64,000 nt of DNA from an uncultured Latescibacterota bacterium (GTDB lineage Bacteria > Latescibacterota > UBA2968), in contig OY282377.1 of NCBI GenBank assembly GCA_958295785.1, positions 2,308,394-2,372,393 of the forward strand, in the 5' to 3' direction. Position numbers and translations under genes: made by a program. The notes under the pieces were generated by a model that was not told the DNA's origin, ran no database searches, and saw nothing but the letters and a program-made list of their open reading frames with translations. Below are positions 2,233 through 51,898 of this stretch, one piece after another (positions within the stretch are counted from its first letter, which is position 1; each line of letters starts with the position of its first letter).

Positions 2233-5200
2233 CTATTCGCGAATAAAAAACGTCGCGGTTTTCTCCGCGCTTTGTTCCGCATTGTGATCGGTCACGATAA
2301 CCGCGATTTCACAACGCCCCGGTGCCGAATCGCCGGGGTCAATTTCCAGATAATGGTACTCATCTGCCGCGTTGCCCGCGTGCTGATAGGAGATCGTCAC
2401 AACGGCTTTTTCCTCGATGCCGAGCAAGCGACCGATGGCGCGAAGGACGCGCACGCCGCTCAGTTTGCCTTCTCGGGGCGTCATGCGATAATCCACGCGG
2501 TATTGGGTATAGCCCAAATCATCGCGTTGCAGGCCATACACTTCGTAGTAAATCACAATGGGTTGCCCCGCCTTATAGGTGCGCGATGGTAGCGCAATGA
2601 CCTCGATGCCCCCGGCAACTGAAGAATCCACTTTGACCTGCCCTGCGATCTCGATATCGCTGATCTTCAAACCGGGCGCCGCGTAGTCTTCCACGATGAG
2701 TTCCTGCGTATAGCCCCCGGACCGTGCGGACGCGGGATGGTCAATTTGGAGGCCCAAATAGTATTTGCCCGGCAACAACTCGAGCGCGAGTTCATCTATC
2801 GCCAAGGTTCCGGCTTCAATGCCTGTTGCATCCACCTGCACGGGCATGGGGGCCAACTTGCGATAAACCGGCGTCCAAGTGCTGTCGAACAGCGCGATGC
2901 CCCGTTCAAACGCGACCTCGGTTTGCCCCGCGTCTATCGCGTCCAAAACCGGCACCCCGTAATACACCTCGAGACGAGACCGATCCCCCGTGCCTCTGAA
3001 ATCGGCATAAGCGTAGTGAAAATCCAGCGCGTTGACCGGCGCGTAGCGGTCGGGTTGTGCGTTTATGGCCCGTGCGATAACGACCTCGGCGCGCGTGTCT
3101 TCCCAAAGCCGCTGGTTAAATCGGGCGATTTTTCGCCCCTGCGAGACATCGGGAAAATCAAAATCCCCCTTTGGCGTCAGCGCGGTAAAAACGACCTCAA
3201 TGCCTCCGGCCACATTGGGATAGATCCAATACGCCCACGGCGCGCTGCCATCAACCGGATAGAGTGGAATGCCCCGCAAGGCGCGGTCGCTCATGCCCGG
3301 GCGGTCTCGGCCAAAGAGTTCTTTGCCGCGCACATACGTGTTGACATCATCGCTGCCTGCGGCGAAGAACACGCGATTGGGATTCATCTCAAAGTCAATG
3401 GACTCAAAATCGCCAATGGCAACTGTTTCTGCCAATTCGGATTCGATCTCGACATCGCGCGTGGAGGTTCGCAACCGCCCGATGCGCGCGAGGATTTCCT
3501 GCTTGGCCTCGGCAAAGAGCGACGCGGCCAACCGCTCTTTGACCCGCACGACCTCCCGATCTGTTTCAAACCGAATGTCTGAACGCGCGCTGATGTGCGC
3601 GGGCTCGCCATAGCGGATGTACACGTCCCCGCGCCTGTCCCATGTCTGCCCGTCTTTTGAGTAATTGTGCAATGCGTACACCACGCGCCGATAGTGCTCG
3701 ACCAAGCGTTCATTGCCCGGCGTTGCCGGCGTGGGGTCGCGTTTTTGCCAGAACGCCCGAACAAATCGCGCCCGGTCTTCGGGCGACAATCGCCGGTACG
3801 CGACGCCTTCCTCTTTCCCGGCCACGAGAGAAATATCTTCCACGCGAGCGCGTGCCTCATCGCTCAAGGTGCGGAGTTCTTCCGCGATCAACGCCTGCGC
3901 TTTGCCGGTTTCCCCGATGTTGAGATAGGCCGATAGGAGCGGATGCACACAGACCCTGCGAAAATCCGGCCGCGCTTCCATGAGTTCCCGCCACACAGTC
4001 GCAGCCGAATCGACATGCCCTCGTTTGAACAGCACGCGCCCAAAGTCGAACTGCGCCCGCGCATCTAACGGGTTGACCGCGATTTGTCGTTTGTGCGCCG
4101 CCGCGCCTTCGGCGAGTTCGCCTTCGCGCTCTAGCACGCGGCCCATCGCGTAGTGGAAATACGGATGATCCGGGTCTTGTGCAACCGCCGTTTGCAGGGG
4201 TTCTAGGCCCTTGCCGGATAGAAACCGCGCCAGCGCGACATTGCCCGGTTGCGCGGCTTTTTGAAAGTGTTGGACCGCGCCATCCCAATCGCGCCGCGCC
4301 AGTTTCACAATGCCCATCGCACGCTGTGCATCGGGCAACGCGGGGGCGATCTCAAGTGCCTTTCGGGCAGCCTCCTCGCCGCGGGCCAACGCGCCGATTT
4401 CCAGCGCGAGCACGGCTTTGGCGGTCAGCGCGTAGGGGGCGCGGGCATCTTCGCGCAAAACAAAATCGACCCTATCGTGTGCCATTCGCACCGCGAGTGT
4501 ATCCGGCAATGGCAACCGCTCGCCAAAGGTCTTATCCACGCGCTTTTTGAGGGTTTTCTCGTGACCGATAGCCCGTAGCAAAGACAGCCCGATGTGCGGA
4601 TCGCCCATGCCCATCATCGGCGCAATGTAACTCTGGGCAAAAAGTGGCAGGTGCTCGACAAAGTGTCCGTAAGCAAAAACAGCGCGTTCCCCTGCGCCGA
4701 GAGCAGCGTATTGCTCGGCGATCTCGGGCGGCGAAAAGCGCGTTAAAATTTTCGCCACTATCGGCATTGTGGGCGATGATACAACGGGAGAACCCGAAAT
4801 GCGAAATGCGCGTTGCGCGTGTGCGACCTGTTCGCCGGCACGGGCTTCAACGCGCAGCGCGTATTCCCCCGGCGGCAAACCGCGCAGCGGGATGCCCTCG
4901 ACGAATTTGGCATGCTCTCGGTACGCGGGAAATTCGCGCTCGTGGTCAAACACGCGATGCCCGAAACGGTCGTGGACCTGAAACCGCACGCGATGGGCGA
5001 GGCGACCGATTTCGTAGAGTTCCACGTAATAGCGCAGGACATCCGAAAATTCGCGGGCAGGCGCGGGCAAGAGAACATGGCCCGCCTTGCGAAACGGCTC
5101 AAATTGCTCGCCGGGCGGGTCGAGGTCGCGCACGAAAAACAAATCGCTCAACGCGAGTTGCCCGGTTTTGTATTCGGGCACCACAATGGGAAATACCGCA

Positions 5201-36920: not shown

Positions 36921-37102
36921 TCTTGCGTCATGCAACAGCATGCAACAGCATTGGGACACTTTCAAAAAATAATATATAGGGAATCTCAGTAGCAAATTTG
37001 ACAGATGTGCCTTCAATAGGTATTTTAATCGATAAATTCGTCCGCCTAACGCCACCAGCAGGGAAATTTCCTGTATGATACAATATGGAGGAAAAGACAC
37101 TA

Positions 37103-39046
37103 ATGGCTTGGGATAAAGATCTACTACCAGACCAAAAAACAGCCGCTATGCATGTAGGCAATCATGCAAGACTGTTGGCCGGTCCTGGCACAGGTAAGAC
37201 GCTCACTTTGACGCGCCGTATTTGCTTCTTGGTTAAAGAAAAAAATGTACCGGCTGAAAGCATTCTGGCTCTCACATTCACTCGGGCGGCGGCGCAGGAA
37301 CTTCGCCAACGCGTCGCTAATGAGTTAGGTAATGACCAAAACCCTCACATCTCCACACTTCATTCCTTTGCCCTCCGGCAACTCATCACGAATAGAACGA
37401 AAATCACGGACTTGCCTCAACCTCTTCGGATCGCAGATGATTGGGAAGAACGCAAAATCATTCTGGAAGACCTAAAGGCCCTGCTTGGCTTGAACCGCAT
37501 CAGCAAAGCACGCGACCTCTTGAATCATCTGTCTGCCGATTGGCAAAGTCTTACTGAGGATGAGGAAGATTGGGAAAAACGCCTCCTTGATCCGCGTTTT
37601 CTGGGTACTTGGCGAGAGCATCGGAAAATCTACGGCTACACCTTGAGAGCGGAACTCGTCTATCAATTGAAGAAAGCTCTTGAACAACGAGGAGATTTCC
37701 AACTCGAAGGTTCGATTAAACATCTTTTCGTGGATGAATACCAAGACTTGAATCGTTGTGATCTGGCAGTGGTGAAAAATATCGCATCGCGTGGAGTTGA
37801 GCTATTCGTTGCAGGAGATGATGACCAGAGCATCTATGGTTTCCGCAAAGCCCACCCGGAAGGCATCCGCAGATTTTCCTGTGATTACTCAGGGACAACA
37901 GAACTTGAACTTGAAATATGTAAAAGATGTGACCGAAATATTCTTGAGTTGGGTCTTTTCGTTGTCAAACAAGATCACCGACGCAAAAATAAAAGACTTC
38001 GGACCGAAGATTCAGCAAAAGAAGGCGAGGTTGCACTTCTCCGTTTTAACGATCAGGATTCAGAAGCCACAGGTATTGCTGACCTTTGTGCTCACCTTAT
38101 GGAGCAATGTGGACTGGAGCCCAATGACATCCTGATCCTTCTTCGATCTGACAACAAAGGTGCGTTTTCTCGCCCAATCCGGAAGGAGTTGGAAAAAGCA
38201 AACATACCAGTTTCGGATACGGATACGACAAACCCATTAGATGAATCGAAAGGAAGAGCTTTTTTTGCTTTCTTGCGATTAGCGGCAAGCATTGAGGACA
38301 GCTTGGCGTGGCGCTCATTGCTTCAGGTTTGGTGTAACGGTGTAGGCTCGGGAGCAATTAAGGCTGTCTATGAACTTGCCCGCAGTCGTGGTGAAAACTT
38401 TGCCCAAACAGTGATTGCCGCTCGGTCCGATTCCGGCATTCTTCCCTCAAAACACAGGTCCCGTCTTTTCAATGCTATTAGCGACGTGTTGAAGAAACTT
38501 AACGTCCTATTTCCAGAAGATAGTCGTGGGGATTATGAAACATGTGATGATCTGATGAAAGTGATTCGGTCTGCCACAAAATCCATAATTGCGAATGCCA
38601 GAGAGCGGGAGGCTATTCTACTCAAAGCAGAAGGGTTTAGAGCGACTTCCATCAAGACCTTAGTTCAGGCAATAGGAGTAGCGAATGAAGACATTGAGCA
38701 GGAGCAGGAACTTGAAAAAGACAAAGTCAATATCCTGACAATGCACCGTGCAAAAGGGCTTACTGCTGAGGCAGTCATCATAGCCGCAGCAGAAGATCAG
38801 TATATCCCAGGGCGAGCCCAAGGTGGAGGAGAGATAGACGATGAGCGACGTCTTTTTTACGTTTCACTAACACGCGCAAAACACCATCTTTTTGTGACGT
38901 ACTGCGACAGGCGGACAGGGCAACAAAGCCACGCTGGTAGGGATAGCGGAACCCCTATTAGGTCTCTTAGCCAGTTCTTGATAGATTGCCCGCATACGCC
39001 TCAAGATGGCAGAGAATTTCTGCGTCGTTTGAAAGAGAAAGCGTGA
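37103..39046 (+). CDS. UvrD/Rep-type SF1A DNA helicase (647 aa)
   Basis: Motifs in order: Q-motif LLPDQKTAA, Walker A AGPGTGKTLTLTRR, TFTRAAAQELRQRV (Ia), DEYQDLN (II), VAGDDDQSIYGFR (III), VNILTMHRAKGLTAEAVIIAAA (V) and RRLFYVSLTRAKHHLFVTY (VI). Shorter than UvrD/PcrA (about 720), with a reduced 2B domain. ATG 37103 follows GGAGG (11-nt spacing); ATG 37085 is an alternative. Codon use is less GC-biased than neighbours. Convergent with the type I R-M operon (73-bp gap), so it may belong to the same defence island. Confidence 0.9.
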   Translation: MAWDKDLLPDQKTAAMHVGNHARLLAGPGTGKTLTLTRRICFLVKEKNVPAESILALTFTRAAAQELRQRVANELGNDQNPHISTLHSFALRQLITNRTKITDLPQPLRIADDWEERKIILEDLKALLGLNRISKARDLLNHLSADWQSLTEDEEDWEKRLLDPRFLGTWREHRKIYGYTLRAELVYQLKKALEQRGDFQLEGSIKHLFVDEYQDLNRCDLAVVKNIASRGVELFVAGDDDQSIYGFRKAHPEGIRRFSCDYSGTTELELEICKRCDRNILELGLFVVKQDHRRKNKRLRTEDSAKEGEVALLRFNDQDSEATGIADLCAHLMEQCGLEPNDILILLRSDNKGAFSRPIRKELEKANIPVSDTDTTNPLDESKGRAFFAFLRLAASIEDSLAWRSLLQVWCNGVGSGAIKAVYELARSRGENFAQTVIAARSDSGILPSKHRSRLFNAISDVLKKLNVLFPEDSRGDYETCDDLMKVIRSATKSIIANAREREAILLKAEGFRATSIKTLVQAIGVANEDIEQEQELEKDKVNILTMHRAKGLTAEAVIIAAAEDQYIPGRAQGGGEIDDERRLFYVSLTRAKHHLFVTYCDRRTGQQSHAGRDSGTPIRSLSQFLIDCPHTPQDGREFLRRLKEKA

Positions 39047-39119: not shown

Positions 39120-41324
39120 TTAGCCGACCAATTCACGGTGGTTCGCTTCCAGTGCCAATGCCTCGTGTAGCAGGGCATCGAGCAGGCGTTGCTTGGTGTC
39201 GTTCCCGGTAGCGAGACTCGCCTCCAGCCGATCACACAGTGCCATCAGTTCATCCACTTTGGCGACGATGCGGTGTTGTTCGGCGAGAGGGGGGAGGGGA
39301 AATGGAAGTATCGAGAAGTCAGCGTCATTGATTGCAGGGTAAGCCTGCCCACGCATGTCCTTTTCTACGCATGCGATCATGAAGGGACTGCGAAGAACGA
39401 TCCATAGATATTTGGACAAAACCAATCCATATCCGTTCAGAATAGCGAACGCTGTACTGGCAATCGGTTTGGGATCAAAGCCTTCACTGACGATTGCTAC
39501 ATTCAAGAGGTAGGGACGAACGCAGGAATAGATGACGTCGCCCTTGCAAACAATTTTCCGTGCCCTGCTTGGTGCTTCATCTGCCTGAAGCACCTTTGGA
39601 TCAACAATCGTTCCGTTCTCTTTGTCTATGGTCGTCACGTCAATGTAGGTAAACGCGGCTTCGGGCTTGCATTGCCCGCGGTCACTGGTTATTTCCCTAA
39701 TACGGGCCCAGTACCAAAGGTGAGGAATCGGATAGGGTATTTCGTCGATGATGGGAAGCTTCTTTGGCTTCCTTATTTTTTTTGCCTTCACCAACCGCGC
39801 CCTCTCCACTGCGATGCGCTTCAATAATTCCGACGCTGGCTCATCATTCGGGTCTTGCGGCACGAGTTTGCCGCGCACTGCGAGGTCGAGAATGAATCCG
39901 CGCAGGCGTGGGATGGCGTCTGGTGCGTCTGCGACTTGTTCAAAGTGGGTGAGCAGTTGATCGGTGGTCATCGCCGCAGTATCCAAAACTGTTTTTAGCT
40001 GGTCGCGCAAGGTCGCGGTTTCCGATTCGGTAGCGGTCAGCATGGTCAAAAGTTCCTCGGGATCGCCATAATCGTCTTCGGCTGTGTGTGGGTTCTTGAT
40101 GTCGAGGTTGTAGCCACGCGCCTTGACTTCTTCCGCCGTGACTTTCCAAGCGCGTTCTGTTTCCCTGCGGCCCGTGTGTTCTGGCCCGCCCCACCAATCA
40201 ATGCAGTCTTGCAAGTGTTCTATCCGGATCGGCTTGGTCTTGGAATAGGCTTTCTGGCCTTTGGGCACGAGGTGTTCGTAAAACCATATACGCTCGGTTG
40301 GCGCGCCCTTCTCGAAGAACAGCAAGTTGGTGCCGATAGAGGCATAGGGCTGGAACACGGAGTTGGGCAATCGGACAATGGTGTGGAGGTTGCATTCATC
40401 CATCAGGTGTTCCTTGATCCGGGTTTTGACGCCTTCGCCAAATAACGACCCGTCGGGCAGAACCACTGCGGCGCGCCCGCCCGGCTTTAAGACGCGGATG
40501 ATGAGGGCGAGGAACAAATCCGCGGTTTCCTTTGTGCGAAAATGTTGCGGGAAATTGCTCTCGATCCCATCCTCTTCTTTGCCGCCAAAGGGCGGATTGG
40601 TGAGCACAATATCTACCCGATCCCGCTTTTCCCAACTGATATAGGGCCGCGCCAAGGTGTTGTCGTGGGTGACAAAGCTCGGATTTTTAATTTTGTGCAA
40701 CAGCATGTTGGTGACGCAAAGCATGTGCGGCAGTTGTTTCTTGTCAACGGCTCGGAGCGCGGTCTGTATTCTTTCCTCGTCTTCGGGCCGTTTCGCGTAA
40801 TGCTCGCGCATGTGGCGCAAGGAACACGTCAGAAAGCCACCCGTGCCGCAGGCCGGATCAAATAGGATTTCCCCGGGCTTGGGGTCAATGCGGTTGACCA
40901 TGAAGGCGGTGACAGCGCGTGGCGTGTAGTACTCACCGGCATTGCCAGCGGATTGCAGGTCGTTCAAGATCTGTTCGTAGATGTCGCCAAAGTGCTGGAT
41001 TTCGGCCATGTCGTTGAAGTCGATCTCGTTGATCTTGTTCACCACTTGGCGCATCAACTGCCCGGATTTCATGTAGTTGTAGGCGTCTTCAAACACACTT
41101 CGCACCACGCGGTGGCGGTCGCCGGATGGGCCGGTCGCGTGGAGATTTTTCATCGCCGGGAACAGGTCGTCGTCGATAAAGGCGATCAGTTTTTCGCCGG
41201 TGATGCCCTCGGGGTCGCCCGCCCAAGTGCGCCACCGAAACCGCTTTGGGATTGGGGATGTGTAGTTTTCCTCGGTCAACTCCAATTCTTTGTCCTGATC
41301 GTCGATGATTTTGAGAAAGAACAT
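39120..41324 (-). CDS. Type I R-M modification-specificity fusion HsdM-HsdS (734 aa from the internal ATG)
   Basis: Residues about 1-455 are HsdM: YYTPRAVTAFMV, SAM motif FDPACGTGGFLTC and catalytic NPPFGG (m6A). Without a stop the chain continues as HsdS: TDQLLTHFEQVADAPDAIPRLRGFILDLAVRGKLVPQDPNDEPASELLKRI-like conserved region (written here as a description), one target-recognition domain (about 560-700), and the ...PPLAEQHRIVAKVDELMALCDRLE spacer helix. Only one TRD is present where HsdS usually has two. The true N-terminus begins at 41420 but is cut off by an in-frame TAG at 41327-41325, directly before this ATG; reinitiation is possible. Confidence 0.88.
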   Translation of the reverse strand: MFFLKIIDDQDKELELTEENYTSPIPKRFRWRTWAGDPEGITGEKLIAFIDDDLFPAMKNLHATGPSGDRHRVVRSVFEDAYNYMKSGQLMRQVVNKINEIDFNDMAEIQHFGDIYEQILNDLQSAGNAGEYYTPRAVTAFMVNRIDPKPGEILFDPACGTGGFLTCSLRHMREHYAKRPEDEERIQTALRAVDKKQLPHMLCVTNMLLHKIKNPSFVTHDNTLARPYISWEKRDRVDIVLTNPPFGGKEEDGIESNFPQHFRTKETADLFLALIIRVLKPGGRAAVVLPDGSLFGEGVKTRIKEHLMDECNLHTIVRLPNSVFQPYASIGTNLLFFEKGAPTERIWFYEHLVPKGQKAYSKTKPIRIEHLQDCIDWWGGPEHTGRRETERAWKVTAEEVKARGYNLDIKNPHTAEDDYGDPEELLTMLTATESETATLRDQLKTVLDTAAMTTDQLLTHFEQVADAPDAIPRLRGFILDLAVRGKLVPQDPNDEPASELLKRIAVERARLVKAKKIRKPKKLPIIDEIPYPIPHLWYWARIREITSDRGQCKPEAAFTYIDVTTIDKENGTIVDPKVLQADEAPSRARKIVCKGDVIYSCVRPYLLNVAIVSEGFDPKPIASTAFAILNGYGLVLSKYLWIVLRSPFMIACVEKDMRGQAYPAINDADFSILPFPLPPLAEQHRIVAKVDELMALCDRLEASLATGNDTKQRLLDALLHEALALEANHRELVG

Positions 41325-41420
41325 CTAGCACAGTTGACCGATGCGCTGGGCGTCGCCATCGACGCCGGTGTCTTGGCGCATAATGTTCTGGATGGATTTG
41401 ACCAACGTGTTGACGGACAT
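41325..41420 (-). pseudogene. Detached N-terminal 31 codons of HsdM, ended by amber codon
   Basis: GGAGGT 7 nt before ATG 41420 gives MSVNTLVKSIQNIMRQ, then DTGVDGDAQRIGQLC and TAG. HsdM proteins read on as ...QLxWM.FLKI, so the TAG sits at the usual Trp codon (TGG to TAG is one base). The hsdR stop is 1 nt upstream. The main part of hsdM continues in the same frame from the next codon (ATG). Confidence 0.85.
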
Positions 41421-41421
41421 G

Positions 41422-43821
41422 TTAAGCGACCTCCGGATAAAGTGCGGATTGCAGATCGTGAACGGCTTCCAAAAATTCGTTTCTGCCGCCAAAGGCATTG
41501 ATCAACTGCACTGGGGTGCCGAGTTCGGTAAACGGCGAAATGCGTAGCACATTGGTATCATCGAGGTTGATGACGCCCTCGTCGGCGTACTTGTCGAGGA
41601 GCGCGTTGAGCACGGTGCGGGCCTGATCCCCGTACTTGGCAAACGCATTTTGCTTTCTGACATTCTCGGCGCGCTCGCGGCGGGTCAGGGGCTCGGCGTC
41701 GAAGGCGAGATGGCAAATGAGGTCGAAGGGATCGAGATTCTTGCCCAGTTCATCGGCAATAATATCGAGTGCCAGCCCTCGCTCCTTCAATTCTTCAATA
41801 ACCGCTTGCTTGTGCTCTGCCGCACGCCATTGCCCGAGAAAGTCGTCGAGGCTGGCGAAGTGCTTTTTCAGTTCCTTTTTGGTGAAGTCGCGCAAGGACT
41901 CGGTGATCAGCCTGCCTTCCTTGTCGAGGTATTCCACGCGCTCGGCAACGATTGTCACGCTGACCCCATCTACATACACTTTCTGCGTGCCACTAAGACG
42001 GGGCAGTTGAACGGGGTCTAAGGGTATGGGATCATCGCTGTCATCTAGAGGCGGCACATCGTCAGGCGGAATCATGGGATCGCCATCGCCCGGTTCGTAA
42101 ATTTGCACGGGGTCACCATCGAAATCCGGGTCCGCGAAATGGCTCGTCGCGCCCCGAAAATCCATTAGGGCAAAATAAAACTTGCAGGTGTCCTCGTGTA
42201 CGCGCGTGCCGCGTCCGACGATCTGTTTGAACTCGGTCATAGAACCGACGATGCGGTCGAGCACAATCAAGCGGCAGGTTTGGACATCGACGCCGGTGGA
42301 AAGCAAGCGCGAAGTCGTGACCAATACGGGGTATTTGGATTCCGGGTCCATAAAGTTATCGAGTTGGGCCTGACCTTCCGGGTCGTTGCCGGTGATACGC
42401 ATGACATAGTGGTGGTTCTGGTCCACCAAATCGGCGTTTTCATTGACGAGGGCCTGTCTCATGCGGCCGGCGTGTTCTTGGTCAATGCAAAAGATGATCG
42501 CTTTCTGGAACCGGTCGCCGCTTTCCTTCAGAAATTCTGTCACCTTGCGGGCGACCACCTCGGTGCGCTCATCGAGCACTAGGGTGTGGTCAAAGTCTCT
42601 GGCGTTGTAGATGCGGTCTTCGACCTCATTGCCGTACCGGTCGAGTTGGCCTCTTTCCGGACGGTAGCCTTCCACATCCCGGTCAATATGGACCTTGATG
42701 ACCTTGTAGGGCGCGAGGAAGCCGTCGCGGATGCCTTGTTTCAAGGAGTAGGAATAGACCGGCTCGCCAAAGTAATGGGTGTTGGAGTCGTACTCGGTTT
42801 CCTTGGGTGTGGCGGTCAGGCCGATCTGCGTGGCGGCAGAGAAATACTCCAGAATTTCCCGCCAAGCCGAATCTTCGGCAGCACTGCCCCGATGGCACTC
42901 GTCAATCACAATCAAATCAAAAAAGGTGGGCGATAACTCGCGGAAAACTTTCTGGTGTTCCTCCGGCCCCGTGATTGCCTGATAAAGGCCGAGATAGATT
43001 TCGTAAGCCGTGTCAATGCGGCGATTTTTCGCGGTGCCATCCCCGCGTTCAATGGTTCCTGCACGGGTCGAGAGCTTGGCCATTGCCGGGCCGAATGGTC
43101 GGAAATCGTTGCTTTGGGTCTGATCGATCAGCACATTGCGGTCAGCTAAAAACAAGACGCGCTTTTTGATGCCCGCCTTCCACAGCCGATAGATGATCTG
43201 AAAGGCGGTATAGGTTTTGCCGGTGCCCGTTGCCATAACGAGCAAAATGCGGTCGCGCCCGCGGGCAATGGCTTCGATGGCGGCGTTGATGGCGTTGACT
43301 TGGTAATAGCGCGGCTCTTTGCCACTGGGACTGGGGTCGTGGAAGTAGTCTTGGAGGACGATTTTCTCGGCTTCGGGCGTCCAGTCCTTCCAAATGCGAT
43401 AGCGCGTCCCTAGATCATCGGGCGATGGGAACGCGTCGAGACCGAGGGTTGTTTCTCGTTTTGAGGCGAGGCCGGTTCGGTCGTGAAACACAAAGCCATC
43501 GCCATTGGAGGAAAACACAAAGGGAATGTCCAGGGCGGCGGCGTAGTCGAGGGCTTGTTGCATGCCGTCACCGATGGCGCAGGTGTTCTTCTTGGCTTCG
43601 ATGAGCGCGATGTGGATGTTGGGTTTGTTTTTGTAATGGAGGATGTAGTCGGCCCGTTTGACTTCGCCTCGGGAAACCAACTTGCCGCGCACGGCAATAC
43701 GCCCCTTAGTGAACGTGTACTCCTCGCGGATTTGCGACCTTTCATCCCATCCCGCCCGTCGCAAGGCTGGCGTGATGAACTTGGTGCAGATGTCGCGCTC
43801 GCTCAAACTCTTTTTGTCCAT
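41422..43821 (-). CDS. hsdR: Type I restriction endonuclease subunit HsdR (799 aa)
   Basis: N-terminal nuclease domain with ADYILHY...IALIEAKK (D...ExK), then SF2 helicase motor: ATGTGKTYTAFQ (about 196-207), DECHRGS (about 305), LTATP, LVTTSRLLSTGVDVQTC, QIVGRGTR. The C-terminus (LIC.LAFD..PLTRRERAENVRK) resembles the EcoEI/type IB HsdR end. Length typical for this subgroup. AGGA precedes ATG. Gene order hsdR-hsdM/S on the minus strand with minimal gaps indicates one operon. Confidence 0.93.
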   Translation of the reverse strand: MDKKSLSERDICTKFITPALRRAGWDERSQIREEYTFTKGRIAVRGKLVSRGEVKRADYILHYKNKPNIHIALIEAKKNTCAIGDGMQQALDYAAALDIPFVFSSNGDGFVFHDRTGLASKRETTLGLDAFPSPDDLGTRYRIWKDWTPEAEKIVLQDYFHDPSPSGKEPRYYQVNAINAAIEAIARGRDRILLVMATGTGKTYTAFQIIYRLWKAGIKKRVLFLADRNVLIDQTQSNDFRPFGPAMAKLSTRAGTIERGDGTAKNRRIDTAYEIYLGLYQAITGPEEHQKVFRELSPTFFDLIVIDECHRGSAAEDSAWREILEYFSAATQIGLTATPKETEYDSNTHYFGEPVYSYSLKQGIRDGFLAPYKVIKVHIDRDVEGYRPERGQLDRYGNEVEDRIYNARDFDHTLVLDERTEVVARKVTEFLKESGDRFQKAIIFCIDQEHAGRMRQALVNENADLVDQNHHYVMRITGNDPEGQAQLDNFMDPESKYPVLVTTSRLLSTGVDVQTCRLIVLDRIVGSMTEFKQIVGRGTRVHEDTCKFYFALMDFRGATSHFADPDFDGDPVQIYEPGDGDPMIPPDDVPPLDDSDDPIPLDPVQLPRLSGTQKVYVDGVSVTIVAERVEYLDKEGRLITESLRDFTKKELKKHFASLDDFLGQWRAAEHKQAVIEELKERGLALDIIADELGKNLDPFDLICHLAFDAEPLTRRERAENVRKQNAFAKYGDQARTVLNALLDKYADEGVINLDDTNVLRISPFTELGTPVQLINAFGGRNEFLEAVHDLQSALYPEVA

Positions 43822-43833
43822 AGCGCATCCTTT

Positions 43834-44808
43834 TTAGACATACCGAATATTCTTCCCCAGCGTTGCCACCATCTCGCCGCTCGCCACCATGGGGCGCGCA
43901 TTTTCCGACCAGAAAATCGATTCCTCTGGCGCGCGCAGTGTTTCGAGCGCATTGCCAAATGGGTCGGTGATGTCTGCAATGGGGGCGCCTTTTTGCAAGT
44001 GATCGTAGCGTTGCGCGTGAAATTCGATAAAGCCGCCCCGATTGGACAACACGGTCAAAAATCCGTCCACCACCACCTGTTTTTCGGGAATGTGCGGCTT
44101 GCCCGGCAGAACCCCGTAGTACTTCAACAGATTCTCAACGCCCACAATCCCCTTTTGAATGCTCGCTCTGTCCCAGCCCTGGCAACCGCCGAGTTCGGGA
44201 TCAATCGTCGGAATCCCCTCATCGGGGGCGGCGCGCGCCAGTTGCCCTTCAGGGCCGCGCTGGTCGAGAATATAGCCGATGCCGAACACCTGTGCCATTT
44301 CCAGACACGCGCGGTGAATGCGTTTGCGCCGATCCACGCGCACGCGCACCTCGTCGATCATGGGCCGTTGCCCGCCTTGGTGCAAATCGATGCAGTAATC
44401 GGCCTGCCGCACCGCATTGTGAAACAACCGATAGGCAACGCGCTCGCTCGATGTCCCGTCTTTCCGCCCGGGAAAACACCGATTCATCTTTTTTTCATCG
44501 ACCGGACTAAATGCCTGATGCGCGTGGAATGCGTGGAAATTGGCGATCAGCACCGCGATGATCTGCCCGTCCATGGCGGTTGGATCCAGCCGCTTCAACA
44601 CCTGCCGAATCACGGCCACGCCATTTAACTCATCCCCATCGCTGATGGCCTGCAAGTAAAAGGTCGGGCCTTCCCGAACCCCATTGATCAGGGACACGGG
44701 AATGCGCGCAGGCGACCCATCCTGCATCTCGGCCACTTTCAAATAGCCATCCATACGCTGCCCCGGATCGGCCATGAGATGTTCAACGCGAAGCCGTTCA
44801 CCCATCAT
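43834..44808 (-). CDS. Succinylglutamate desuccinylase/aspartoacylase-family deacylase (324 aa)
   Basis: ATG 44808 is 8 nt after AGGAG; upstream ATGs are badly spaced. M14-type fold features: SDGDELNG (57-62, normally HGDE.NG), NRCFPG (about 109-114), CIDLHQGG (His143), and a late GGFIEFHAQRYDHLQKG biotinyl-like segment. The first zinc ligand His appears replaced by Asp57; Glu60 and His143 are kept. Aspartate can bind zinc, but activity is uncertain. Located just upstream of hsdR on the same strand with only 12 nt between, but function appears unrelated. Confidence 0.82.
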   Translation of the reverse strand: MMGERLRVEHLMADPGQRMDGYLKVAEMQDGSPARIPVSLINGVREGPTFYLQAISDGDELNGVAVIRQVLKRLDPTAMDGQIIAVLIANFHAFHAHQAFSPVDEKKMNRCFPGRKDGTSSERVAYRLFHNAVRQADYCIDLHQGGQRPMIDEVRVRVDRRKRIHRACLEMAQVFGIGYILDQRGPEGQLARAAPDEGIPTIDPELGGCQGWDRASIQKGIVGVENLLKYYGVLPGKPHIPEKQVVVDGFLTVLSNRGGFIEFHAQRYDHLQKGAPIADITDPFGNALETLRAPEESIFWSENARPMVASGEMVATLGKNIRYV

Positions 44809-44980
44809 GTTCATCGCTCCTGAAAAAAGCCCATTGCCATCTAATTCAAAATAAAAAACAGGGGAATGCATGTGGTGTCAACGCAAACTTGACGCCAGTC
44901 ATGCAGTACATTTCGCCAAGCCGCTTTAACCCTCGCAAAAGTCCGCGGTCCCAGAATACGCGACAAAAAGTGAGGATAGA

Positions 44981-49824: not shown

Positions 49825-50943
49825 ATGAACTTCAAAATTGGAGAGCTTTTCTGCGGTCCTGGCGGCTTGGCATTAGGGGCTATGCGGTCATCTGTCGAGA
49901 AAAATGGCCAACAATACGCTATCAGCCACGCCTGGGCCAACGACTTTGACGAGGATTCATGCGAAACGTACAGGCAGAATATCGCGCGGGATTCTATTAT
50001 ATGTCGCGATGTCGAGCAACTGGACTTTTCAAGCCTTGCTCCAATTGATATTTTAGCATTTGGATTCCCGTGCAATGATTTTAGTGTAGTGGGAGAAAAA
50101 AAGGGCATAAACGGCGTGTACGGGCCACTCTATTCCCATGGTGTTCGCGCGCTGGAACATTTTGGTCCAAAATGGTTTCTCGCAGAGAATGTTGGCGGAC
50201 TTAGAAATGCAAACGACGGGCGTGCATTCCAAACCATTCTCAAAGAACTTCAAGAGGTGGGATACGTCATAACGCCGCATCTGTACCGCTTTGAAGAATA
50301 CGGCGTTCCACAAGCGAGACACCGCATAATCATAATTGGCATACGGTCAGATATCCCTGTAACATTCAAAGTGCCCGCGCCGTTTTCAAAGCCGCTTCGC
50401 ACATGCAAAGAGGCGGTTGAAGAACCACCTATACCCGCTGACGCGCCAAACAACGAGCGCACAAAACAAGCTACATGGGTCATTGAGCGTCTGAAACACA
50501 TCAAGCCTGGGGAGAACGCATTTACGTCCGACCTTCCCGAACATCTGAAGTTAAACGTTAAGGGCGCGAAAATCAGCCAAATCTACAAAAGATTAGACCC
50601 AAACAAGCCCGCCTACACTGTTACAGGAAGCGGCGGCGGCGGAACACATGTGTATCATTGGAGCGAAGACAGGGCATTGACAAACCGCGAGAGAGCGAGG
50701 CTTCAGACATTCCCTGATAATTTTGTTTTTTCTGGTACAAAAGAAAGTGTCAGAAGACAAATAGGTATGGCACTTCCACCGCTAGGATCGCAGGTAATTT
50801 TTGATGCTACCCTGAAGTGTTTCGCAGGTATAAACTATCTCTCAGTTAAACCGAATATCACTCCGGGGGGTGATACGATTCGATCTCGTCCTATGCAACT
50901 TAGCCTTTTGGAGAGACGTTGTGCTTACGGAAAATCTATTTGA
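49825..50943 (+). CDS. DNA (cytosine-5-)-methyltransferase, NgoFVII-partner type (372 aa)
   Basis: GAGGAG is 6 nt before ATG. Motif I IGELFCGPGGLALGA, motif IV FGFPCNDFSVVG (Cys83; FPCN instead of PPCQ), motif VI LAENVGG, motif VIII QARHRIIIIG and motif X RRQIGMALPPLG. The target domain is about 195-300. The last 23 nt overlap the nuclease gene. AT-richer than neighbours. Confidence 0.92.
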   Translation: MNFKIGELFCGPGGLALGAMRSSVEKNGQQYAISHAWANDFDEDSCETYRQNIARDSIICRDVEQLDFSSLAPIDILAFGFPCNDFSVVGEKKGINGVYGPLYSHGVRALEHFGPKWFLAENVGGLRNANDGRAFQTILKELQEVGYVITPHLYRFEEYGVPQARHRIIIIGIRSDIPVTFKVPAPFSKPLRTCKEAVEEPPIPADAPNNERTKQATWVIERLKHIKPGENAFTSDLPEHLKLNVKGAKISQIYKRLDPNKPAYTVTGSGGGGTHVYHWSEDRALTNRERARLQTFPDNFVFSGTKESVRRQIGMALPPLGSQVIFDATLKCFAGINYLSVKPNITPGGDTIRSRPMQLSLLERRCAYGKSI

Positions 50944-51898
50944 AAAGGTCCTCATAGAACCTGCCATGCAGAATTTTGACACTCTTTGCATCGTCTCTGG
51001 CTATGCAAGTGCAACGATGGTGTCGAGACACTTTGATCATCTTCGCAGAGGTAAAAGGGAAGTGCGTATTCAGTTGATAGTCGGGATGGCTATTCGGGAT
51101 GGCATATCTGAAAAAGACCATAAGGGATTTCAGGAACTTGCCAGCGAATACAAAGATGTGTTTATCTGCCGCTATGTCGCAGGCAATCCGCCTGTCCATT
51201 CAAAAACTTATGCGTGGTGCAATGGTGACATTCCGAGGCTTGCCTTTATTGGCTCTGCAAACTACACACAAGTAGCGTTCAGTACTTCGCGCAGAGAAGC
51301 CATGATCGAGTATGATGCAGAACGAGTTCGGGACTATTTTGATCTCATCCAGCGAGATACGATTAACTGTCTAGATCCACGGGCAAAAAATCTTATCGCC
51401 ATTTACAGCGAACCGCGATATTCAATGCGTATGCCTCTTGGAAATGTGGAGGAGTCTGACGAAGATGAAGATACAGATAGAATAGCAGACGACTTAGCAC
51501 AACTTCCTCGGGCAAGCGTGAGTTTCCTCGACGGCTGGGGAGATTTACCTCAACGGTCCGGACTGAATTGGGGGCAACGACCGGGACGCGAGCCCAACCA
51601 AGCGTACATAAGGCTCCCCATAGAACTGACAAAGACAGGTTTCTTCCCACCCAGAGGAGAACACTTTACGATACTTACAGATGATAACAAATCGTTAAGA
51701 TGTGTACGCCGGCAAGACGCCGGCAAGGCAATACATACCCCCGATAACAATAGCCGTATAGGGCTTTATTTTCGGTACAGACTCAACGTGCCGGAAGGCA
51801 TGAATATCACAAAAGAAGACATGGAGCACTACGGACGCACAGATGTCAATTTCTACAAAATAGATGAAGAAACCTACTATATGGATTTTTCCGTTTGA
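50921..51898 (+). CDS. NgoFVII-type restriction endonuclease, PLD superfamily (325 aa)
   Basis: GTG 50921 follows GGAGAG by 5 nt and lies within the methyltransferase gene. The phospholipase-D core is clear: PPVHSKTYAW...GDIPRLAFIGSANYTQ (His93, Lys95, GSxN at 111-114), as in RE_NgoFVII and BfiI nucleases, which use one HKD site per chain as a dimer and need no metal. The C-terminal half is the likely DNA-recognition part. NgoFVII recognises GCSGC; whether this one does is not known. Confidence 0.88.
   Translation: MLTENLFEKVLIEPAMQNFDTLCIVSGYASATMVSRHFDHLRRGKREVRIQLIVGMAIRDGISEKDHKGFQELASEYKDVFICRYVAGNPPVHSKTYAWCNGDIPRLAFIGSANYTQVAFSTSRREAMIEYDAERVRDYFDLIQRDTINCLDPRAKNLIAIYSEPRYSMRMPLGNVEESDEDEDTDRIADDLAQLPRASVSFLDGWGDLPQRSGLNWGQRPGREPNQAYIRLPIELTKTGFFPPRGEHFTILTDDNKSLRCVRRQDAGKAIHTPDNNSRIGLYFRYRLNVPEGMNITKEDMEHYGRTDVNFYKIDEETYYMDFSV

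Follow-up and report, generated by a model that had tools for sequence, protein, structure and literature searches.

A natural hsdM–half-hsdS fusion interrupted by an amber codon in a type I restriction–modification operon of an uncultured Latescibacterota bacterium

Evolutionary models of restriction–modification (R-M) systems place the form in which HsdM is joined to half of an HsdS (M–half-S) between the type I and the type IIG enzymes; this form was reportedly made in the laboratory in 2018. The engineered SauSTORF499P CC398-1 fusion (M1/2Sfus) methylates the palindrome ACCN5GGT as a dimer and restricts together with HsdR (PMC6158711). An MS fusion of EcoKI that carries two target-recognition domains (TRDs) is also active; "Type IMS," the name put forward by its authors, covers one-TRD fusions with a separate HsdR as well (PMC3510504). 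One-TRD type I systems work by dimerising (PMC3874165).

Here, we describe an M–half-S locus in a window of 64,000 nucleotides, i.e., the whole stretch of DNA that was analysed (positions 2,308,394 to 2,372,393 of contig OY282377.1 from an uncultured Latescibacterota bacterium). The fusion is natural here, and its layout is mainly known from engineered enzymes. The amber codon that lies within this natural M–half-S fusion is real.

Layout and origin of the operon

The first gene of the operon is hsdR (41422–43821, minus strand), which encodes an EcoEI-type type I restriction subunit of 799 aa. Its frame is whole, in agreement with an earlier sequence-only reading of this DNA that had described hsdR as intact, and full-length matches to Pfam (ResIII, EcoEI_R_C, and HSDR_N) and PADLOC (REase_I) models identify both the HSDR_N nuclease and the ATP motor of a type I system. 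HsdR is 70–79% identical to its relatives, with a dN/dS of about 0.1 or lower. The ATG of hsdM (41420) starts two bases past the last base of hsdR (43821–41422) and is preceded, at a distance of 8 nt, by the Shine–Dalgarno sequence GGAGGT (41434–41429, minus strand), which overlaps the end of hsdR; the start of hsdM proposed from the letters alone was thus confirmed.

The frame that begins at this ATG encodes an HsdM fused to a half-length HsdS rather than HsdM alone, with Pfam domains in the order HsdM_N, N6_Mtase, and Methylase_S. Residues 1–483 (39972–41420, minus strand) form the HsdM part, in which HsdM_N and N6_Mtase (PF02384, 7e-74) were identified and alignment showed the motifs DPACGTGG and NPPF (residues 275–278; 40587–40598, minus strand) to be intact. 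Residues 484–766 (39120–39971, minus strand) correspond, by Pfam and comparison with relatives, to a half-length HsdS that has one TRD instead of the two of a two-TRD type I HsdS, and the former hsdS ATG is located at 39971. In close relatives, hsdM and hsdS are separate genes and HsdS is mostly two-domain; in L010–L016, the TGA that ends hsdM overlaps the hsdS ATG in a different frame. The M–S junction of the window is 5 nt shorter than that of its relatives, so that the hsdS ATG is in frame with hsdM. The locus therefore has hsdM and hsdS in one frame and a separate hsdR, as in the Type IMS layout. No fused M–S relative of this HsdM family was found among the matches inspected (47 genomes of the class, and plasmids), in which M and S are separate open frames or separately annotated genes.

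The HsdS part of the window aligns twice, to the two homologous halves of HsdS in L010–L014 and L016, and represents a single half in which both conserved ends are kept. A half-size HsdS also occurs in L017 and, with a different TRD, in the Candidatus Binatia MAG L009 (OX638322.1), so that this size probably goes back to an earlier state of the lineage. In L017 (G046), of the same class, the natural half-length HsdS (2907–3734) adjoins an HsdM that is separate and intact, and this further case suggests that half-S systems recur in this group.

The neighbouring AstE/AspA-like gene (43834–44871, minus strand) is 84–87% conserved in nine of the 10 other genus members, and homology stops at its 3′ end. 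When five loci were compared, similarity stopped at the stop codon of the AspA-like gene, exactly at the start of the R-M segment, and the 3′ end of this gene marks one edge of the foreign segment. The R-M operon is absent from the AspA-like gene neighbourhood of the other genus members, and neither hsdMS nor the UvrD/GajB-like helicase gene has a close copy in any of them. This helicase gene, recognised by Pfam and PADLOC (37085–39046, plus strand), is convergent with hsdMS and is probably part of the same acquired segment. These comparisons indicate that the type I R-M operon is a recent arrival acquired by horizontal transfer.

Two side observations concern other genes of the window. The UvrD-family helicase gave its best scores against GajB models. 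At 49825–51898 on the plus strand, a gene for a C5-cytosine methyltransferase overlaps one for an NgoFVII-type restriction endonuclease (PLD and B3-like DNA-binding domain), and the two likely form a type II R-M pair.

The amber codon and its possible readings

Codon 32 of hsdM is TAG (41325–41327, minus strand), in frame with the ATG at 41420 and preceded by 31 codons (41328–41420, minus strand). The codon that follows is ATG (41322–41324, minus strand), from which the frame is open for 734 codons, to 39120. Position 32 is Trp in all 12 aligned relatives and in the HsdM proteins of T. tengcongensis (TTE) and Vibrio in the PDB; across a wider tblastn set, it is Trp except in the two most distant homologues (28–30% identity), which have Tyr. 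The TAG in place of a family Trp, and the in-frame ATG and long open frame behind it, had both been noticed in the sequence-only reading and were verified here. Relative to the relatives, the sole coding change at codon 32 is TGG to TAG, a single base. No second disabling lesion is present across the 734 codons past the amber and the 799 codons of hsdR, and HsdM_N is whole only on read-through of the TAG. The amber is not conserved among relatives, with no stop at this codon in L010–L022 and the TAG of L009 at another codon. The same TAG–ATG string was matched 16 times in viral contigs, never within an HsdM homologue.

A premature stop at a conserved codon, for which no decoding system was found, characterises a nonsense-mutated (pseudo)gene. 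We consider it likely that a type I R-M system gained by horizontal transfer was silenced, wholly or almost so, by a recent nonsense mutation. Inactivation of the modification subunit, one of the outcomes envisaged earlier, is the best-supported reading in view of the TAG at an invariant Trp, the lack of a CUA tRNA, and the lack of a Shine–Dalgarno sequence at the restart. Loss of function fits because hsdM has been independently broken more than once in relatives. The hsdM of L009, whose product is 80% identical, has its own amber (Gln125), accompanied by a partial hsdR deletion and by an insertion between hsdM and the half-length hsdS, and the hsdM of L014 has a frameshift following codon 39. 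From its sequence, L009 would be a later decay stage of the same kind of system. To judge from its translation, the L009 insertion (L009:5353–6266) may encode a Phd-type antitoxin and PIN-domain toxin pair.

Against silencing, the catalytic motifs are all intact, the shared history gives a dN/dS of about 0.1, and a still-expressed gene would equally well show no further lesions. For a dead gene, the lack of further lesions limits neutral substitutions since inactivation to roughly 2–5% per site; as to relaxed selection after the stop, the divergence from relatives is too large to reveal a recent relaxation. The remaining uncertainty mainly concerns read-level error or polymorphism and low-level restart.

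If the TAG were an error of assembly or consensus, or an allele carried by a minority of the sampled population, the true or prevailing gene would encode Trp and the fused system would be intact. Such an origin would agree with a lone single-base difference in an otherwise perfect frame under strong past purifying selection, and with a contig that resembles a long-read metagenome assembly of one population, as inferred from its being a single contig of 5.66 Mb. However, the amber is a substitution and not an indel, the site is outside any homopolymer, interrupted coding stretches are few in 464 kb of the same genome, and in a second genome, that of L009, this gene carries an amber of independent origin together with further lesions. 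We regard this explanation as unlikely.

Alternatively, ribosomes that terminate at the TAG might reinitiate at the adjacent ATG and produce a working M–half-S protein of 734 residues, 32 residues shorter than the full-length form. Reinitiation had been suggested in the sequence-only reading; the adjacent, in-frame pair is indeed present, such close stop/start pairs commonly reinitiate in bacteria (PMC5972666), and the frame 3′ of the amber is undamaged. A productive restart is nevertheless unlikely because the ATG has no Shine–Dalgarno sequence, in contrast to the GGAGG ahead of the real start, and because the restart cuts into a helix that TTE HsdM needs for assembly. The restart ATG also encodes an ordinary residue of the family, Met33, which is Met in L009–L012 and L014–L016 and Leu in L013. 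AlphaFold places W32 within helix 23–49 (mean pLDDT 82.9), so that the restart product is predicted to lose residues 1–32 and to start inside this helix. Residue 39 of TTE HsdM is the counterpart of W32 in the PDB alignment, and a TTE HsdM with deletion 1–30 assembles, whereas one with the nearly equivalent deletion 1–40 does not (PMC3047542). This result may not transfer fully to a covalent fusion because the dimer could be held together by the half-S helices even if M–M contacts fail, and the covalent half-S link could thus soften the N-terminal loss. On balance, a working restart product seems quite improbable. More doubtful still is a natural one-TRD Type IMS that functions at a low level through this stop-restart, with the amber as a switch of dose and N-terminus that leaves a homodimeric M–half-S methyltransferase without its first 32 residues.

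Decoding of the amber into a full-length protein by a suppressor tRNA, an alternative code, or programmed read-through is barely credible: although L009 hsdM also contains a TAG and many copies of a multicopy transposase of this genome have an internal TGA or TAG, no CUA-anticodon tRNA occurs among the 47 tRNA hits of the genome (46 of them standard tRNAs), TAG is an ordinary stop that, in 464 kb of the genome, terminates 35 of 190 ORFs of at least 300 codons and shows no in-frame excess inside coding stretches, and the TAG of L009 is at a different codon, for Gln instead of Trp, beside other lesions. The suppression of TAG raised in the sequence-only reading was accordingly not supported, as neither a CUA tRNA nor a genome-wide reassignment of TAG was detected. 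The 47th hit (RF00005; L072, G000:C1:2242246–2242327) is weak, has neither an ARAGORN call nor a CUA anticodon, and is a tRNA-like element among short repeats that resemble a CRISPR array.

The multicopy transposase is IS701-like, with about 111 matches in the whole genome (G000), most of them 88–100% identical (e.g., G000:C1:666449–667111, L125; L129–L188). In-frame stops were found in 25 of the 47 full-length copies checked; they are confined to three shared positions (TTA to TGA at two of them and TCG to TAG at the third), and no frameshift between the motifs used was seen. Stop-bearing transposase lineages have clearly multiplied, and this may have proceeded by trans-mobilisation or read-through. 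RIP-like or deaminase hypermutation was rejected as the source of these stops in view of the three shared positions and of the TTA and TCG codons, and the copies have too few private changes for a selection test on the stop-bearing ones.

Consequences for the R-M operon

The acquired operon consists of hsdR followed by hsdM fused to a one-TRD hsdS, and we favour its silencing by a recent nonsense mutation. The M–S chain was probably a homodimer before the mutation, in which two M and two half-S domains would rebuild the M2S1 geometry and recognise a palindromic split site. A recent G-to-A change that turned the codon for the invariant Trp32 in the M part into a nonsense codon would then have introduced the stop, yielding a 31-residue peptide and at most a trace of a 734-residue product in which the HsdM N-terminal domain lacks its first helix and the beginning of its second. 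This shortened product may have weak residual activity. Without a working M–S chain, HsdR could not assemble a cleaving enzyme, and the resulting r−m− state would be harmless, with decay only beginning.

An intact hsdR without HsdM had been considered normally hazardous in the sequence-only reading, a view that the literature does not support. Type I HsdR is inactive by itself and works solely on the M2S core, M or S alone binds no DNA, and HsdM is needed for restriction and modification alike (PMC3874165, PMC12707154). An hsdR without HsdM is harmless because HsdR is inactive when the M2S core is lacking. A group A Streptococcus strain with an hsdM deletion is viable, with less methylation and an increase in transformants of about 500-fold (PMC8597746). 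The amber in hsdM would be an ordinary decay event, and it illustrates why breakage of hsdM does no harm while hsdR stays intact.

Comparison with known systems

The natural hsdM–half-hsdS fusion is the part of this locus worth keeping, as it has the form of the proposed intermediate between type I and type IIG enzymes. Prior activity of the fusion is plausible because engineered fusions of the same layout and the two-TRD EcoKI fusion are active, and by analogy the ancestral fused allele may have worked as a homodimer. If intact fusion alleles exist in the same population, they would allow a direct test of whether nature uses this homodimeric form.

Similar to the window, M1/2Sfus joins HsdM and a single-TRD HsdS in one frame, with HsdR separate (PMC6158711). 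M1/2Sfus is engineered and active, whereas the gene of the window occurs naturally, has an interruption at codon 32, is a member of an EcoEI-like family, and retains the conserved C-terminal region of HsdS. The EcoKI fusion resembles the window in that the frameshift between overlapping hsdM and hsdS has been lost, but it has two TRDs and requires extra HsdM in vitro (PMC3510504). NgoAV shares with the window a natural truncated HsdS, and its specificity is symmetric; different from the window, it is a type IC system with unfused M and S and is active (PMC3874165). L009 has a half-length HsdS with the same conserved ends and, like the window, an amber in a closely similar hsdM, but its M and S are split by the insertion, its hsdR is partly deleted, its TRD is another one, and its amber lies at Gln125.
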